Assembly (NCBI GenBank): GCA_017535945.1
Contig: JAFXTJ010000080.1
Span: 1-33,277 of the forward strand
Reading direction: 5' to 3'
Source of the DNA: Lachnospiraceae bacterium
Lineage (GTDB): Bacteria > Bacillota > Clostridia > Lachnospirales > Lachnospiraceae
DNA: 33,277 bases
Part shown: positions 1 through 15,030 of the stretch, piece by piece
How positions within the stretch are numbered: the first letter of the stretch is position 1
Layout of the letters: every line of letters starts with the position of its first letter
The notes under the pieces: model-generated
Told to the model about the DNA's origin: nothing
The model's input: the letters and a program-made list of their open reading frames with translations, nothing else
Database searches by the model: none
Program-made: the position numbers and the translations under genes

Positions 1-131
1 GTCGTGGATTTTCCGGCGCCGTTGTGACCGATGAAACCGTAGATATCGCCGCTCTCCACGGTGAGCGACACATCATCCGCCGCCTTTTTCCCGCCTCCGT
101 AGGATTTGGAATAATGTCTGATCTCAAGCAT
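1..131 (-). CDS. ABC transporter ATP-binding protein (N-terminal fragment)
   Basis: Only the first 43 codons are present; the gene runs off the left edge. Translating the minus strand from the ATG at 129-131 gives MLEIRHYSKSYGGG, then a stretch ending in the Walker A motif GHNGAGKST, the nucleotide-binding loop of ABC ATPases. The start is supported by an AGAAAGGAC ribosome binding site just upstream. It lies 65 bases after the response regulator and on the same strand, so the two may be co-transcribed. Response regulators next to ABC exporters often control peptide-antibiotic or cell-envelope stress pumps, but the substrate cannot be told from this fragment. Confidence in the ATPase call is high, in its role low. 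Confidence 0.85.
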   Translation of the reverse strand, partial: MLEIRHYSKSYGGGKKAADDVSLTVESGDIYGFIGHNGAGKST

Positions 132-196
132 CTGTCTGTCCTTTCTCTATCCTTATGTTGGTAAGCGTGTAAACAGCCCGGATTCTGTTTGTCATC

Positions 197-898
197 TCAA
201 TTCGCTTCGAATTTGTATCCCACGCCCCAGATCGTGGCCAACCGCCATTTCTCATGATCCCCGAGTTTTTCCCGGAGACGTTTGATATGCACATCCACCG
301 TCCGGGTATCACCCACATATTCATATCCCCAGATCCGGTCCAGCAGCTGTTCCCTGGTAAAAACATGATTGGGTGAGGATGCCAGGAAGAACAGCAGTTC
401 CAGTTCCTTGGGCGGCATATCGATCCGTTCTCCCTCGCGGATCACGGAATAGTTTGTGATATTGATGGATAACCCCGGATACTCCACTGCCTTGACATCA
501 TCCGCTGGATCACTGACCGGGCGGCTCTCCTGATATCGCCGCAGCACAGCCTTCACTCTGGCCACCAGTTCCTTGGAATCAAAGGGCTTCTCCATATAGT
601 CGTCCGCGCCCAGTTCCAGCCCGAGCACTTTATCGAATACTTCGCCCTTGGCGGAGAGCATGATGACCGGCGTCTTCGCATGGGTGCGGATCTCGCGGCA
701 TACCTGATATCCGTCCATGCCCGGCAGCATGATATCCAGCAGGATCAGATCCGGGCTGAAGCTCTTCTCCTCCCTGAGCGCCGATTCGCCGTCACCGACG
801 ATCCGGGTCTCAAAGCACTCCTTTTCCAGGTACAGAGCGATCAGCTCCGCGATATTCTGATCGTCATCCACGATCAGGATCTTCTGCTTCTGGGCCAT
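197..898 (-). CDS. OmpR/PhoB-family response regulator
   Basis: Two-component DNA-binding response regulator of 233 residues, the normal length for the family. The receiver domain covers about residues 5-120, with the acidic pocket D11-D13, the phospho-acceptor D55 in LLDIMLPG, the switch residue S82 and K104 in EKPF. The C-terminal winged helix is about 140-232 and ends with the typical TVDVHIKRLREKLG and IWGVGYKFE blocks. No sensor kinase is visible; it could lie beyond the left edge. The gene starts 15 bases after mutS2 ends, behind an AGGAAAAGGAA ribosome binding site, so it is probably read from the mutS2 transcript. The signal it answers to is unknown. Confidence 0.95.
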   Translation of the reverse strand: MAQKQKILIVDDDQNIAELIALYLEKECFETRIVGDGESALREEKSFSPDLILLDIMLPGMDGYQVCREIRTHAKTPVIMLSAKGEVFDKVLGLELGADDYMEKPFDSKELVARVKAVLRRYQESRPVSDPADDVKAVEYPGLSINITNYSVIREGERIDMPPKELELLFFLASSPNHVFTREQLLDRIWGYEYVGDTRTVDVHIKRLREKLGDHEKWRLATIWGVGYKFEAN

Positions 899-912
899 TT
901 CCTTTTCCTCCT

Positions 913-3306
913 CTACATCAATGTGACGATGGTCACTCCTTCGTCCCCTTCCCCGTATTCCCCGGCTTTATAATCCTTTACATACGGGACCGCCTCCAGG
1001 TGCTCCCGTACCGCGCGGCGCAGGACGCCGGTTCCCTTGCCGTGCACGATCCGTGCCGTCTTCATATGCGCCATATAGGCCTCGTCCAGATACCGGTCGA
1101 GCGCGGCGATGGCTTCATCCGCCGTCATCCCGAGCAGGAGACACTCCGTGGAAATGTTCATCCCGCGGGAAAGATCGACCTCCCGTTTCTTTTCCCCTCT
1201 GCTGTAAAGTGAACGGATCGCTTTTTTCCCGTCGCTTTCCTCTTTGGCATAAGCGAGATCCCGGACGTTGACCCGGCTTTTCATAATGCCGCAGGTTACG
1301 GTCAGTTCCCCTTTCTTATCCGGCAGGGTCGACACGGTACCGGTCAGTCCCATGGAAACGATCCGCACCAGGTCCCCGACATGCAGCTTCCCCGGATCGA
1401 CCGCCGGGTGAGCCGGCTTCTCCGCCGCCTCCCGCTCCGAGAGGCGCTTGTTTCTGGTGTTCAATTCCCTGCCGACACGGGTTCTTGCCTGCTCCAGCTC
1501 GCGTACGGATGCACCCTCCCTGTTCATCTTCCGGATGGTCTCATCGGCGACGCGCTTGGCCTCTTTCAGGATCTCCTTTGCCTCGCGCTCGGCTTCCCGG
1601 ATCCGCTTCTCCTTTGTCTCCTCCAGCTTCTTCTCCCGCGCCAGAAGTTTCTTCTCCTTATCCGCCGCTTCGACCCGGAGGGTCTCCAGCCGCGCTTTCT
1701 CTTCATCCGCCTTGCGTCGGCTCTCCTGCAGATCGGACAGCAGCCTGTCAAAGGAGCGGGAACCCTCATCGACCTGCTTCCCGGCGGCCTCGATCACCTC
1801 CGCGGGCAGGCCCAGCTTCCCTGCGATGGCAAATGCATTGCTGCTGCCGGGAACGCCGATGAGCAGCCGGTAGGTCGGCCGCAGGCTCTCCACGTCAAAT
1901 TCACAGGCCGCGTTCATCACACCGTCCGTGGTCATGGCATAGATCTTGCACTCACTGTAATGGGTGGTCGCCATGGTCCGGATCCCCTGTCCGTGCAGCC
2001 GACGCAGGATCGCCACCGCAAGGGCTGCTCCCTCCGTGGGATCGGTACCGGCGCCCAGTTCGTCGAACAGACACAGGCTCTTCTCATCCGCCCGGTCCAG
2101 GATCTCCACCACATTTTTCATATGACCGGAGAAGGTGGAAAGGCTCTGCTCGATCGACTGCTCGTCCCCGATATCCGCAAAGATCTCCGTGAATACAGCA
2201 AGCTCCGACCGGTCGCCTGCCGGGATCGCAAGCCCGGCCTGTCCCATCAACGCCAGCAGGCCCACCGTCTTCAGGGTCACGGTCTTGCCGCCTGTGTTGG
2301 GGCCGGTGATGACGAGCTGGTCAAACGCGTCCCCCAGATAGATATCGATGGGGACAACCCGTTCAGCAGGGATCAGCGGATGTCTGGCCTTTCTCAGGAT
2401 GAACGCCTGCCGCTCATTGAACTGCGGCACCATGCCGCCGATATCGAGGGCATATTTCGCTTTCGCAAATGTCATATCCAGAAACCGTGCCGTCTCCAGA
2501 TCAAACTCCAGATCATCCGCCTGCGATGCAAGTCTGGCGGACAGGAGCGCAAGCAGGCGCTCGATCTCCTCCTGCTCTTTGATATGCTCCTCCCTGAGCG
2601 TATTGTTGAGCGCCACGATGGATTCCGGCTCTATGAAGAGCGTCTGACCCGTGGCACTGGCGTCGTGCACGATGCCGTTCACCTGGGAGCGGCATTCCAC
2701 GCGCACCGGCAGGCAGTAACGGTCCCCCCGCATGGTGATCACCGCATCCTGCAGATACTGACGGTAACTCCCCGATGCCATGCGGTTCAGATCACGCCGG
2801 ATCTGCTCCCCTGCCGCGGCGATCCGTCTGCGGATCTGCTTCAGCTCCGGCGTGGCATCATCCGCGATCTCGCTCTCCGAAAGGATGCACCGCGAGATCT
2901 CATCCGAGATCTCCCGCATCGGTACCAGTGCCTCAAAATACGGTGTCAGCGAATCCTCCGGTGCCTCTTCTCCGGTCCCGTAACTCCTGATCCGCCCCAC
3001 ACCGCGCAGGAAAAGCGCGGTCCGAAGGAGTGCCGCCGCATCGAGACTCTGCCCGATCCGCAGCGCGTTCAACAGCTCCTCCCCGCGAAATACCGCGGAA
3101 AAGGAAACATCGCTTCTCTTCAGATAGCGCGTGACGGCATCCGCCGTGAAGCCCTGAAGCCGCAGGATCTCCCCGCGGTCATCAAGCGGGATGAGACGCA
3201 GACACTCCTCCCGCCCCGATGCGGAATCCGCATGCTCTGCCAGCGCGGTTGTGATCTTGTCAAATTCGAGAACCCGAAGTGCCCGTTCGTTCATCCTGTC
3301 CGTCAT
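913..3306 (-). CDS. mutS2: MutS2 (ribosome-rescue / anti-recombination ATPase with Smr domain)
   Basis: MutS paralogue of 797 residues, the family's usual length. MutS2 lacks the mismatch-binding domains of MutS. It acts on branched DNA or, in Bacillus, on collided ribosomes. Visible parts are the core helices (1-320), Walker A GPNTGGKT at 335-342, Walker B CLFDELGAGTDPTEGAA, a long charged coiled coil (about 515-625), a KOW-like segment after it, and a C-terminal Smr domain (about 715-797) with HGKGTG at 755-760. The first Smr motif, normally LDLRG, reads CLLLG (722-726), so the usual Asp and Arg are missing. The start at 3306 has AGGAAAG very close; the internal ATG at 3294 (MNERALRVLEF) is an equally plausible start. 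It heads a probable operon with the response regulator. Confidence 0.95.
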   Translation of the reverse strand: MTDRMNERALRVLEFDKITTALAEHADSASGREECLRLIPLDDRGEILRLQGFTADAVTRYLKRSDVSFSAVFRGEELLNALRIGQSLDAAALLRTALFLRGVGRIRSYGTGEEAPEDSLTPYFEALVPMREISDEISRCILSESEIADDATPELKQIRRRIAAAGEQIRRDLNRMASGSYRQYLQDAVITMRGDRYCLPVRVECRSQVNGIVHDASATGQTLFIEPESIVALNNTLREEHIKEQEEIERLLALLSARLASQADDLEFDLETARFLDMTFAKAKYALDIGGMVPQFNERQAFILRKARHPLIPAERVVPIDIYLGDAFDQLVITGPNTGGKTVTLKTVGLLALMGQAGLAIPAGDRSELAVFTEIFADIGDEQSIEQSLSTFSGHMKNVVEILDRADEKSLCLFDELGAGTDPTEGAALAVAILRRLHGQGIRTMATTHYSECKIYAMTTDGVMNAACEFDVESLRPTYRLLIGVPGSSNAFAIAGKLGLPAEVIEAAGKQVDEGSRSFDRLLSDLQESRRKADEEKARLETLRVEAADKEKKLLAREKKLEETKEKRIREAEREAKEILKEAKRVADETIRKMNREGASVRELEQARTRVGRELNTRNKRLSEREAAEKPAHPAVDPGKLHVGDLVRIVSMGLTGTVSTLPDKKGELTVTCGIMKSRVNVRDLAYAKEESDGKKAIRSLYSRGEKKREVDLSRGMNISTECLLLGMTADEAIAALDRYLDEAYMAHMKTARIVHGKGTGVLRRAVREHLEAVPYVKDYKAGEYGEGDEGVTIVTLM

Positions 3307-5735: not shown

Positions 5736-6893
5736 TCAAAGCCTTGCAATAAACCGCTGCAGCCGCTCCAGCGCCCGTTTCAGATCATCCAAGGAATAGG
5801 CATAGGAAATGCGGATGTATCCTTCGCCGCAGTCACCGAAAGCCGTGCCCGGTACGACGGCCAGTTTCTCCTCCTTGAGCAGCCTCGTCACAAATTCGTC
5901 ACTGCTCATGCCGAACTGCCGGATATCCGGGAATGCATAGAACGCCCCGAACGGCTCAAAGCACGGCAGTCCCATCTCCCGGAACGCATGCAGCAGGTAT
6001 TTCCGGCGGCGGTCATATTCCTCCCGCATCATCGCCACATCCTCATCCCCGTTCCTCAGGGCCTCCACTCCGGCATACTGGCTGGTCGTGGGAGCACACA
6101 TGATGGCAAACTGGTGGATCTTGATCATCTGCTGCATGATGAGCTGCGGCCCGACAGCATATCCCAGCCGCCAGCCTGTCATGGCATACGCCTTGGAAAA
6201 TCCGTTGATCACGATAGTGCGGTCCCGCATCCCCGGAAGCGCCGCGATGGAGACATGCCTGCCGCTGTAGGTCAGTTCACTGTAGATCTCGTCCGAGATC
6301 ACATAGAGATCTTTGTCGATCACCACACGCGCGACGGCTTCCAGATCCTCCCTGTCCATCACCGCACCGGTGGGATTGTTGGGATAGGGCAGGATCAGGA
6401 TCTTGGTCCTGTCCGTACATTTCTCCAGGATCTCTTCCGGCTTCAGCCGGAAATCATTCTCCCCTTTGAGTTCGATGATGACCGGTTTCGCATCCGCGAG
6501 GACCGCACAGGGCTCATAGGATACATACGAGGGCTGCGGGATCAGAACCTCGTCTCCGGGGTTCACCATGGCCCGCAGAGCGAGATCGATCGCCTCGGAA
6601 CCGCCGACCGTCACAAAACTCTCGGTCATCGGATCATAGGTCAGTCCCTGCGTCCTCCTCATATAGGCGCAGATCTCTTCCCTGAGTTCCTTTAACCCCG
6701 AATTGGAGGTGTAGTAGGTACGGCCCTTCTCCAGTGAATAGATCCCCTCGTCGCGGATATGCCAGGGTGTGTCAAAATCGGGTTCCCCGACGCCCAGCGA
6801 AATGGCATCGTCCATCTCCTGCACAATATCAAAAAACCTGCGGATCCCCGAGGGACGGATCTCGGTTACCTTGTCGGACAGCGGATTTCTCAT
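5736..6893 (-). CDS. Class I/II PLP-dependent aminotransferase
   Basis: 385-residue fold-type I aminotransferase of the PatA/AspC-like group, acting in the cytoplasm on an unidentified amino acid. Visible motifs: LGVGEPDFDTP near the N-terminus, YTSNSGLKELR for substrate/PLP placement, NNPTG (172-176) with N173, DEIY (201-204) with D201 and Y204, and the PLP lysine K234 in GFSKAYAMTGWRLGY. A C-terminal Arg that binds the substrate carboxylate lies in GYIRISYA. It overlaps the upstream lrp-like gene by four bases. Lrp-type regulators commonly control the neighbouring amino acid enzyme, so this is probably a co-regulated pair for aromatic, aspartate or alanine transamination. The substrate cannot be chosen from sequence alone. 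Confidence 0.92.
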   Translation of the reverse strand: MRNPLSDKVTEIRPSGIRRFFDIVQEMDDAISLGVGEPDFDTPWHIRDEGIYSLEKGRTYYTSNSGLKELREEICAYMRRTQGLTYDPMTESFVTVGGSEAIDLALRAMVNPGDEVLIPQPSYVSYEPCAVLADAKPVIIELKGENDFRLKPEEILEKCTDRTKILILPYPNNPTGAVMDREDLEAVARVVIDKDLYVISDEIYSELTYSGRHVSIAALPGMRDRTIVINGFSKAYAMTGWRLGYAVGPQLIMQQMIKIHQFAIMCAPTTSQYAGVEALRNGDEDVAMMREEYDRRRKYLLHAFREMGLPCFEPFGAFYAFPDIRQFGMSSDEFVTRLLKEEKLAVVPGTAFGDCGEGYIRISYAYSLDDLKRALERLQRFIARL

Positions 6894-13225: not shown

Positions 13226-14041
13226 ATGAGTCTCGGCAATAATCTCAAGGCACTCAGGGAAGAACGGAAACTCACACAGGATCAGATCGCGGAAGCCCTC
13301 GGCGTAAGCTTTCAGGCGGTATCCAGCTGGGAACGCGACGAATACAAACCGGATACCGACAATCTCATCAGACTTGCGGCCTGTCTGGACGTCTCTGTCT
13401 CCGCCATCGTAGAAGAAAAACCGAACACTTTTAAGACAAAGGAAGCGATCTACAACTGGGAGCACATGAAGACCTACGTCAAGACGACGGCCAGGAATTT
13501 CAAACTCAACAACACACTGAAAGCCGTCGATTACGCGGTCGACGCCCATAAGGGCCAGAAACGGAAGCGCTCCGTCGTCCCCTATATCTATCACCCGCTC
13601 AATCTCGCCTGCCACGCCCTCTCCATGGACATCATCGATGATGCGATCATCGCTGCCTGCATGCTGCATGACGTCATCGAGGACTGCGGTAAATCGCTGC
13701 AGGAGCTGCCGGTCGATGAGGAGACCAAAGAACTGGTCCGGCTGCTGACACATGAGAAGACCTCCGGCGAAAACCGCGACGAGATCATGGACGCCTATTA
13801 CGGCGCCATCGTGGAAAACCCCAAGGCGGCGCTGATCAAATGCATGGACCGGTGCAACAATCTGACCACCATGTCCTGGGGCTTAAGCCGCGACCGGATC
13901 TACCGCATGATCAGGGAGACCGAGCAGTACTACCCGATGCTGATCAAAGCGATCAAGGCCACCACCGAATACAACAATGCCTCCTGGCTGCTGCGGTACC
14001 AGATTGAGAGTATGCTGGACATCTATAAACGGCTGATGTGA
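13226..14041 (+). CDS. XRE-type HTH fused to a RelA/SpoT-like alarmone hydrolase (HD) domain
   Basis: 271 residues. An N-terminal Cro/C1-type helix-turn-helix (about 5-62; LTQDQIAEALGVSFQAVSSWERDEYKPD) is joined by a short linker to an HD domain (about 90-270) of the (p)ppGpp-hydrolase type. The residues that bind manganese and substrate in Rel hydrolases are kept: AHKGQKRK (107-114), H123 in YIYHP, H148-D149 with E152-D153 in LHDVIED, and D208/N212 in KCMDRCNN. No synthetase, TGS or ACT domain is present, so it resembles a small alarmone hydrolase attached to a DNA-binding domain. It may destroy (p)ppGpp or a related nucleotide, or use the pocket to sense it and change transcription. Start and ribosome binding site are clear. 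It converges with the amidohydrolase gene. Confidence 0.88.
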   Translation: MSLGNNLKALREERKLTQDQIAEALGVSFQAVSSWERDEYKPDTDNLIRLAACLDVSVSAIVEEKPNTFKTKEAIYNWEHMKTYVKTTARNFKLNNTLKAVDYAVDAHKGQKRKRSVVPYIYHPLNLACHALSMDIIDDAIIAACMLHDVIEDCGKSLQELPVDEETKELVRLLTHEKTSGENRDEIMDAYYGAIVENPKAALIKCMDRCNNLTTMSWGLSRDRIYRMIRETEQYYPMLIKAIKATTEYNNASWLLRYQIESMLDIYKRLM

Positions 14042-14052
14042 AGAAGCAGTAT

Positions 14053-14790
14053 TCATGAAATATGGCTGATCGCTGCCGCGATATCCTCTTTTATCTTCTG
14101 ATATCCGGATGTCCTGTTAAGACCATGATCCATATATAGTCCCCGATTGAGTTCGATCATCACGGACCGTACCCTGCTGTCGCGACGGTAGTATTTCATC
14201 GGTACAAGACTGCCGGCAAACGGACGATCGACCGCCACCGAATACCCCCTGCATTGAAAAAACTGAAACAGACACTCCGTAAGATCATCCGGTGTGTGAT
14301 ACGCATCTGTTCCGATGCAGATATCGGGACGCGGCGTGTTTTGATCGGATTCGTAGGGAAGCGGAACGTCATGGAATGAATGCCCGTCAATGAGCAGGCA
14401 GGTTCCGAAGTGCCGGAGTTTCTCCTCAACGGCCCTTTCCAGCCGCTGATGATGCGGATCATAATAACGGGAAAGGATCTCCTCCCGGTGAAGCCTTGAA
14501 ATATGCTTCAATTCGCTCCCGTCGGAACAGGAGGTATAGACCGCGCCCATTCCGATCCGGGCCATTCCCTCATCCGCATCCTCCCGGAATCGCTCCGGAT
14601 CGCAGACCAGTCTCGATATCGGAAAGCGGATCATCGTATCTCCGGTATCATACAGATCATCGCAGTAATGATCCGTCATTACTGCGATCTCACGCGACAG
14701 ATCATGCGTGACAAAAAACAGCTGTTCCTCCGGGGGGATGCAGACAGATGCGTGCGGCACATGGATCACAACGGGTTGATTCTTTTGCAT
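14053..14790 (-). CDS. N-formylglutamate amidohydrolase-family enzyme under SAM riboswitch control
   Basis: 245 residues from the ATG at 14790, which is set by AAAAAGGAGG. Family features: IHVPHAS near the N-terminus (H10, H13), DHYCDDLYD (40-48), RLVCDPERFRED (60-71), a metal-site-like LLIDGHSFHD (132-141) and IELNRGLYM (212-220). Named members are zinc hydrolases that remove formate from N-formylglutamate in histidine breakdown (HutG). No hut genes are nearby, and the leader carries a SAM-I-clan riboswitch with a terminator, which normally shuts off methionine, cysteine or SAM genes when SAM is plentiful. The substrate may thus be a methionine- or SAM-related amide such as N-formylmethionine; this is inference. 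The family call is firm, the reaction is not. Confidence 0.85.
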   Translation of the reverse strand: MQKNQPVVIHVPHASVCIPPEEQLFFVTHDLSREIAVMTDHYCDDLYDTGDTMIRFPISRLVCDPERFREDADEGMARIGMGAVYTSCSDGSELKHISRLHREEILSRYYDPHHQRLERAVEEKLRHFGTCLLIDGHSFHDVPLPYESDQNTPRPDICIGTDAYHTPDDLTECLFQFFQCRGYSVAVDRPFAGSLVPMKYYRRDSRVRSVMIELNRGLYMDHGLNRTSGYQKIKEDIAAAISHIS

Positions 14791-14856
14791 GACAGCCTCC
14801 TTTTTGAATCCTGAAGAGGCTGCAAAGGACATCCTTCCCGTGAACAGAGTGCACAG

Positions 14857-14881
14857 AAAAGACCCATCGTCTCGACGGGCC
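14857..14881 (-). terminator. Riboswitch-controlled intrinsic terminator
   Basis: On the minus strand GGCCCGTCG-AGA-CGATGGGTC forms a 9-bp stem (two G-T pairs) with a 3-base loop, followed by TTTTCTGT. It lies between the SAM aptamer and the ribosome binding site of the amidohydrolase. Its 3' arm contains CGATGGGT, the same eight bases that form the 3' strand of aptamer helix P1 and the base before it, so P1 and antiterminator pairing compete. Confidence 0.85.
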
Positions 14882-14898
14882 TTCAGATCCTGACATTC

Positions 14899-14985
14899 AC
14901 CCATCGATCAAGCATTGGCACCTTACCCTTCCGGGCAGGTTGTCGTGCGGTCACAGGGCTTGTCCCTCGCGCACTCTTCATAGGT
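14899..14985 (-). promoter_or_regulatory. SAM-I-clan riboswitch aptamer, compact (P4-less) form
   Basis: The minus strand carries the SAM-I core in order. P1 is ACCTAT pairing with ATGGGT (14980-14985 with 14899-14904). The AAGAG junction follows, then P2 GTGCG/CGCAC with the internal GAGGGAC...GCCCTGTGA block, GACAACC, P3 TGCCC-GGAA-GGGTA, and AGGTGCCAAT. The element is only 87 bases and leaves no room for a P4 hairpin. The P2 loop CAAGC (14958-14962) is a perfect complement of GCTTG (14909-14913), which would make the pseudoknot. This layout resembles the SAM-I/IV variant more than standard SAM-I. It should bind S-adenosylmethionine and favour the downstream terminator. This element, its promoter and the terminator fill the 306-base gap between the flanking genes. 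Confidence 0.85.
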
Positions 14986-15001
14986 ATATATGTATATTAT
15001 G

Positions 15002-15030
15002 AATCTACCACATCCGCCGGCATATGACAA
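15002..15030 (-). promoter_or_regulatory. Promoter of the SAM riboswitch transcript
   Basis: Minus-strand TTGTCA (15025-15030) and TAGATT (15002-15007) are 17 bases apart, placing the start of transcription about ten bases before the aptamer. Two copies of the palindrome GCCGGC (15016-15021 and 15031-15036) flank the -35 box. Confidence 0.6.

Follow-up and report, generated by a model that had tools for sequence, protein, structure and literature searches.

Riboswitches of the SAM-I (S-box) class repress the genes behind them when SAM is plentiful. Protein turnover in bacteria naturally yields N-formylmethionine, and hydrolysis of this compound by formylmethionine deformylase (EC 3.5.1.31) is a long-known activity. 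Among described systems, two come close to the arrangement presented here. SAM-I(Xcc) of Xanthomonas is described as acting mainly at the level of translation, with an anti-SD that binds initiator tRNA (PMC7270179). In the dual expression platforms of PMC2258182, the terminator stem contains the SD, and one aptamer is predicted to act on both transcription and translation.

In this study, we analyzed a stretch of 33,277 nucleotides from a Lachnospiraceae bacterium (contig JAFXTJ010000080.1, hereafter the window), for which a promoter, a SAM-I-clan aptamer, an intrinsic terminator, and a ribosome binding site had been predicted from the sequence in front of a single gene of the N-formylglutamate amidohydrolase family. 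Beyond this original prediction, our analysis added an SD-hiding layer, the reduction of P4, and occurrences in phages.

Organization of the locus

The amidohydrolase gene is solitary, with a divergent PP-loop gene upstream and a convergent HTH-HD gene downstream. The PP-loop gene is TtcA-like yet stays under the cut-off (181 vs 272 bits), and a cluster for a V-type ATPase is located beyond it. The following features were assigned:

15002..15030, minus strand: promoter-like site TTGTCA-17-TAGATT (consensus scan)
14898..14986, minus strand: SAM-I aptamer (RF00162) with P4 almost absent (Rfam covariance model and alignment)
14980..14985, minus strand: P1 5' strand, ACCUAU (alignment A3)
14974..14980, minus strand: UGAAGAG, end of the P1 5' strand plus J1/2, proposed anti-anti-SD (complementarity to the anti-SD arm; weak in the window by shuffling)
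14899..14904, minus strand: P1 3' strand, AUGGGU (leader alignment)
14900..14907, minus strand: antiterminator strand (UCGAUGGG), overlapping the P1 3' strand (ON-structure alignment)
14872..14879, minus strand: terminator 5' arm, alternative partner of 14900-14907 (ON-structure alignment)
14857..14882, minus strand: intrinsic terminator, hairpin 14860-14882 plus U-run to 14857 (minimum-energy fold and alignment; unlisted by the consensus scan)
14825..14836, minus strand: small hairpin AAGG-AUGU-CCUU with an AUG (fold; part of Lachnospiraceae leaders only)
14793..14823, minus strand: SD-hiding hairpin, anti-SD arm 14814-14823 and SD arm 14793-14802 (fold and alignment)
14796..14802, minus strand: SD, AAGGAGG (read from the sequence)
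14053..14790, minus strand: PF05013 amidohydrolase gene, 245 aa (ORF and profile searches)
13226..14041, plus strand: HTH + HD_4 (RelA/SpoT-like) gene, convergent with the amidohydrolase gene on its downstream side

Both the promoter and the ribosome binding site were found as predicted, the former as the promoter-like site ahead of the leader and the latter as an SD directly in front of the single gene. Over the whole stretch and both strands, the consensus scan revealed two promoter-like pairs, while 0.1 were expected in shuffles. For the terminator, the picture is mixed: the hairpin is present in the minimum-energy fold of the window and 96.0% of its cells pair across 15 leaders, but its U-run is short (UUUUCU) and a simple consensus scanner listed no terminator within the stretch.

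A SAM-I aptamer with reduced P4

A search with Rfam covariance models bore out the predicted aptamer as a match to RF00162 at 14898-14986 (minus strand), scoring 56.7 bits (E 1e-10) against a gathering score of 44.4. P1, P2, P3, and the conserved core of RF00162 are all present, while most model positions of P4 are deleted in the model alignment, so that the P4 hairpin is missing. Following GGUGC(C/U)AA, all 15 leaders found in front of the amidohydrolase (FGase) gene and its homologs (see below) read (A/U)GCUUGA(A/U)(C/U)GAUGGG, a fixed short 3' part of P4. Because the RF00162 model classes the leader as SAM-I despite the loss of P4, we filed it as a SAM-I variant, and judged by its sequence it is a distinct and unusual subtype. 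From its match to the model, the aptamer of the window would be expected to bind SAM. Across the 15 leaders, four pairs of P2 were changed on both sides with all cells paired, P3 was nearly invariant, and P1 displayed no pair changed on both sides, its two outer pairs each failing in five leaders.

Terminator, antiterminator, and SD-hiding hairpin

The 3' strand of P1 is complementary to the 5' arm of the terminator, forming an antiterminator with one compensatory pair; antiterminator columns 91/138 read C-G in ten leaders, U-A in four, and are gapped in one. Aligned across the 15 leaders, the OFF structure (P1, P2, P3, and terminator) had 96.0% of cells paired and the ON structure with the antiterminator 99.1%, compared to at most 48.3% in slid-register controls. 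The both-sided pair count of the OFF structure was reached by 4 of 500 shuffles, that of the ON structure by 218 of 500, i.e., with no excess over shuffles.

Behind the terminator, a second hairpin was identified in a set of 16 leaders, consisting of the 15 FGase leaders and L071, a further copy of the subtype. In the minimum-energy fold of the post-terminator sequence, an anti-SD arm covers the SD in 15 of these, and L013 uses a neighboring stretch instead. On alignment A4, 94.5% of the cells of this hairpin were paired versus at most 75.6% in slid controls; its both-sided pair count was reached by 411 of 500 shuffles and thus shows no excess. The P1 5' strand and J1/2 offer the anti-SD arm a second complementary partner. 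This second pairing runs over 6 to 12 contiguous pairs in FGase leaders (13 in L071), and in half of the set (8/16) it extends into the P1 strand with 10 to 13 pairs. Its register is shifted in L023 and L051-L053, and the longest match of L006 and L013 does not fall in the anti-SD arm. In the common register, 92.3% of cells were paired versus at most 68.8% in slid controls (n=16). Columns 7/212 harbor U-A in seven, C-G in six, and U-G in three leaders, columns 9/210 are unpaired in five, and 15 of the 16 leaders have U as the anti-SD base of column 207, which gives a wobble with a G of the SD and a Watson-Crick pair with J1/2. While the both-sided pair count of the second pairing was reached by 145 of 500 shuffles, its covariation score was reached by none of 500.

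Comparison with shuffled sequences gave different results for single leaders and for the set. The seven contiguous pairs of the window are weak, being reached by 131 of 500 shuffles in the contiguous-match test, and the same holds true for L008 (188/500) and L013 (104/500). L004 and L022 show a stronger second pairing than the window. By duplex energy, the window match was reached by 19 of 500 mononucleotide shuffles (z -2.1) and 23 of 300 dinucleotide shuffles (z -1.5). The mean z for the 15 FGase leaders was -3.7 against mononucleotide shuffles and likewise -3.7 against dinucleotide shuffles, and a mean z of -4.6 was obtained for 16 distinct leaders of the subtype from phages and other loci, some of them near copies (22 tried, three duplicates dropped, L083, L094, and L107 unparsed; L085, L086, and L089 left out). 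Control leaders of metK, each represented by the 60 bases directly ahead of the SD (nine tried, L066 unparsed), had a mean z of -0.2 (n=8), yet two of them, L001 (-3.0) and L061 (-1.8), match well.

The computed OFF structure was more stable than the ON structure in all 16 leaders. With the antiterminator forced, the SD hairpin was favored in eight leaders and the second pairing in four, with neither above 0.5 in the remaining four; the values for the window were 0.89 for the SD hairpin and 0.11 for the second pairing. Therefore, a translational step would need folding during transcription. The anti-SD arm is transcribed before the SD and would meet a free P1 5' strand only in the absence of SAM, which would make the choice a co-transcriptional one.

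By eye, the AUG of the small hairpin starts a frame closed by a stop in L004, L005, L007, and L081; this frame has seven codons (MSFAASL) and traverses the anti-SD arm. The AUG shares the reading frame of the gene in the window and L009 but not in L013, and the remaining leaders do not have it. A leader peptide starting there was rejected as a general part of the element, since the frame differs or is absent among the leaders.

Distribution of the gene and its leader

Protein searches of genomes resulted in 36 loci including the window, after merging of the duplicates L006/L015 and L009/L014 and exclusion of plasmid matches. The leader was found at 15 of them, namely the window, L004-L010, L013, L022, L023, and L051-L053 by Rfam and L081 by sequence, so that the aptamer recurs upstream of a homolog at 14 other loci (13 by Rfam). 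At 19 loci (L011, L012, L016-L021, L024-L033, and L035), RF00162 remained below the cut-off; among these, L011 is without the first 31 codons, L012 is frameshifted, the partial ones are L011, L026, and L027, and the sequence upstream of L026 is limited to 142 bases. Two loci, L034 with a run of N and L054 with no upstream DNA, stand outside these counts. Every complete gene found at no less than 49% identity (tblastn) bears the leader, and these genes belong to two bacterial classes, as L022, L023, and L051-L053 come from a family of another class of the same phylum. Complete homologs at 39-46% identity (tblastn; L016-L019, L024, and L025) are without riboswitch. The expectation that homologs carry the element was thus borne out for the closer relatives and failed for the less similar ones.

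Within the genus of the window, the gene occurred in only 4 of 79 species, and all four have the leader. Mapped on a tree, the leader-bearing proteins were clustered (2 changes versus a shuffled mean of 11.3), though not in a single supported clade. The genus members L004 and L081 group with L009 of another genus (support 95/96), which agrees with a joint transfer of gene and leader. Comparison of 18 loci (L051-L053 and L081 being outside this set) revealed no conserved operon partner. The neighbors differ save for an HTH-HD gene near some of them; as they vary while the leader persists, the riboswitch stays with the gene when its place changes. Counterparts of the window's HTH-HD gene recur in L006/L046, L036, and a second locus of genome G099 (L071/L079), and a search of the other loci yielded only a weak match in L043 (30% identity).

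Among plasmids, 196 records matched the protein, all below 60% identity and with about 40% for the best rows listed, while the leader of the window had no match. In viral contigs, the amidohydrolase gene was not found. Two side observations concern more distant genes: the leaderless homologs L038 and L041 (family f5) overlap with a next gene that resembles a serine hydrolase (by eye), and on an Enterococcus faecium plasmid a distant PF05013 gene ends a folate gene cluster (L060, 163-6170).

Properties of the amidohydrolase

The protein belongs to PF05013, the FGase family (E 3.7e-49, 168.3 bits versus a gathering score of 28.9). With the model for the HutG N-formylglutamate deformylase (TIGR02017), it reached 56.9 bits, far under the equivalog cut-off of 278.75. 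Furthermore, hutU (TIGR01228), the only gene of the pathway searched, was absent from all 16 genomes with the gene or a relative, of which that of the window (G000) is 81.9% complete; in the control for this search, a signal was detected in 5 of 14, above cut-off in four. Histidine breakdown is therefore unlikely as the role of the enzyme. The putative catalytic residues H13, D40, R60, D64, R67, H137, and E213 are shared by all 33 aligned homologs, which makes an active enzyme likely as far as residues can tell. At window positions 190, 211, 215, 216, and 219, two HutGs from hut operons (L055 and L056) have R, Q, A, Q, and H, whereas all 14 aligned leader-bearing proteins (L081 was outside the alignment) have P, M, N, R, and Y. 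The sole solved structure matched by sequence, 2q7s (E 1.6e-11), is named an N-formylglutamate amidohydrolase.

As SAM-I riboswitches repress at high SAM, the amidohydrolase would be made when SAM is short. Domains of the MetH-type S-methyltransferase (PF02574), the sole methionine gene searched, were detected in 11 of 11 genomes. The enzyme is therefore no plain substitute for methionine synthesis, and methionine auxotrophy as a reason for the gene found no support.

RF00162 searches of ten gene-bearing genomes (G1205 was left out) resulted in exactly two matches each, and the second match precedes metK in nine, including the genome of the window. In the tenth, G099, it is another copy of the P4-reduced subtype.

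The P4-reduced subtype in phages and other genomes

The signature of the subtype was found in 9 of the 397 genomes from the family of the window, three of which (G000, G099, and G416) carry the FGase gene, in 5 of 121 genomes of the other family, in each case at an FGase locus, and in 19 IMG/VR viral contigs (L092-L110). RF00162 was above the cut-off in 17 of 19 variant loci scanned (6 genomic and 13 viral), with L085 and L089 below. In 13 of the 19 viral contigs, the first SD-preceded ORF encodes a protein family of about 100 aa, including three sets of identical proteins, and the same is true for L084, L085, and L087. For the members tried, Pfam gave no hit above the cut-off and PHROG none under E 0.02. 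The complete Ruminococcus phage NatCom_28274 also encodes a relative, at a distance of 2.2 kb from a gene for a DNA methyltransferase; the leader there (locus L111, about 5825-6297) was recognized by eye. These occurrences raise the question of why phages would sense SAM.

Apart from that, the second copy in G099 (L071, 662-1587, minus strand) lies before a MORN-repeat ORF, and the next gene encodes a relative of the phage proteins of about 100 aa (best BLAST 31.7% identity, E 1e-14, small set), with an HTH-HD gene adjoining. In G385 (L083, about 1-1587, minus strand), the subtype precedes a metK-like ORF of 337 aa, which has 42.9% identity (E 4e-29) to MetK of the window genome.

Discussion

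We consider it somewhat probable that an OFF switch of this unusual SAM-I subtype controls a single orphan amidohydrolase, which likely frees methionine from an N-acyl-methionine. With SAM bound, P1 would form, allowing the terminator to fold and transcription to stop, and in transcripts reading through at high SAM the SD would stay hidden in its own hairpin. At low SAM, the P1 3' strand would pair with the terminator 5' arm and thereby cause antitermination, while the freed P1 5' strand together with J1/2 would capture the anti-SD arm, leaving the SD open and the gene translated. The enzyme would then most likely release methionine from its N-acyl form, thus restoring the pool of methionine and SAM. 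Our guess for the substrate is N-formylmethionine or another N-acyl-methionine, the former being our first choice. An amidohydrolase raising methionine is the simplest reading; the substrate may also be one of the other N-acyl-methionines, and the enzyme may serve a purpose beyond methionine supply. The suggested orphan hydrolase for methionine or SAM supply fits the SAM switch conserved with the gene, metK as the other target in 9 of 10 genomes, and the missing hutU; the general occurrence of PF02574 does not favor its use in place of methionine synthesis.

Whether both control levels exist is the point on which a plain S-box transcription attenuator would differ, with the SD hairpin and the J1/2 match as mere by-products of an SD-like J1/2. 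Any anti-SD arm would partly match J1/2, because J1/2 (AAGAG) resembles the SD (AAGGAG), giving about five pairs for nothing; in line with this, the match is weak in the window, L008, and L013, and folding with a forced antiterminator prefers the SD hairpin in half of the leaders. Such a by-product would hardly explain why the match continues into the P1 strand for 10 to 13 pairs in 8 of 16 leaders, why columns 7/212 vary on both sides while a U-G wobble is kept in the SD hairpin, and why phage leaders also have the second pairing whereas metK leaders on average do not. We regard the plain attenuator as doubtful, though worth serious attention.

Regarding the enzyme, hydrolysis of N-formylglutamate or another N-acyl-glutamate appears very improbable. 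Formate could feed methyl-folate via one-carbon metabolism, SAM control would then reflect one-carbon supply (formate to folate to methionine), and both the name of the PF05013 family and the PF02574 domains in all 11 genomes agree with this; the low HutG score, the lack of hutU, and the five HutG-shared residues that differ in 14 of 14 leader-bearing proteins speak against it. Another explanation, which we hold to be improbable, is an alarm for SAM depletion used by mobile elements and their hosts, with the amidohydrolase gene serving as cargo or in defence and having nothing to do with methionine supply. It would account for the phage family behind the subtype in most viral contigs and the complete phage record, for the patchy occurrence of the amidohydrolase in one genus, and for the second copy in G099 with its phage-protein relative. 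The phage protein, as another user of the subtype, is without known methionine link, and this was counted against the methionine explanation. Conversely, no viral contig with the amidohydrolase was found, the neighborhoods examined by eye share no common mobile element, and G385 has the same subtype in front of a metK-like gene. A broader version of the favored methionine reading, in which the P4-reduced subtype uses both P1 strands in phages and bacteria and controls an N-formylmethionine-hydrolyzing enzyme in two classes, we regard as speculative and unlikely in its entirety.

In the literature searched, a SAM riboswitch and an N-formylglutamate amidohydrolase were not found together; riboswitch combined with formylglutamate yielded only a polyamine paper, judged by title. 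Among the matches listed, no title pointed to phage SAM riboswitches (SAM riboswitch and prophage) or described the P4-reduced subtype or its gene. The main text of PMC3766115 does not contain "formyl", and the examined parts of PMC11477304, PMC2258182, and PMC2965389 do not mention formyl compounds. Likewise, the searched literature revealed no gene for formylmethionine hydrolysis, which the N-formylmethionine reading, if true, would supply for this activity. SAM regulation is a strong functional lead for an orphan enzyme that can be checked by a few assays, and the leader would be a natural case of one aptamer helix driving transcription and translation control via its two strands, in bacteria as well as phages.

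Compared to HutG (TIGR02017), the enzyme shares the PF05013 family and the putative catalytic residues, but its score is far under the cut-off, its genomes are without hutU, and several residues of the two HutGs are missing. With regard to the dual platforms of PMC2258182, one aptamer is likewise predicted to serve transcription and translation, whereas terminator and SD hairpin are separate elements here. SAM-I(Xcc), according to PMC7270179, has in common with our leader the SAM-I aptamer, an anti-SD hiding the SD, and two control layers; our leader differs in having a terminator as well, and in the P1 5' strand as the proposed partner of the anti-SD. For the SAM-I (S-box) family RF00162 itself, the whole model is matched, with P1, P2, P3, the core, and a transcription terminator downstream, while here P4 is mostly deleted in favor of a fixed GCUUGA(A/U)(C/U)G and both strands of P1 also match downstream elements of the switch.
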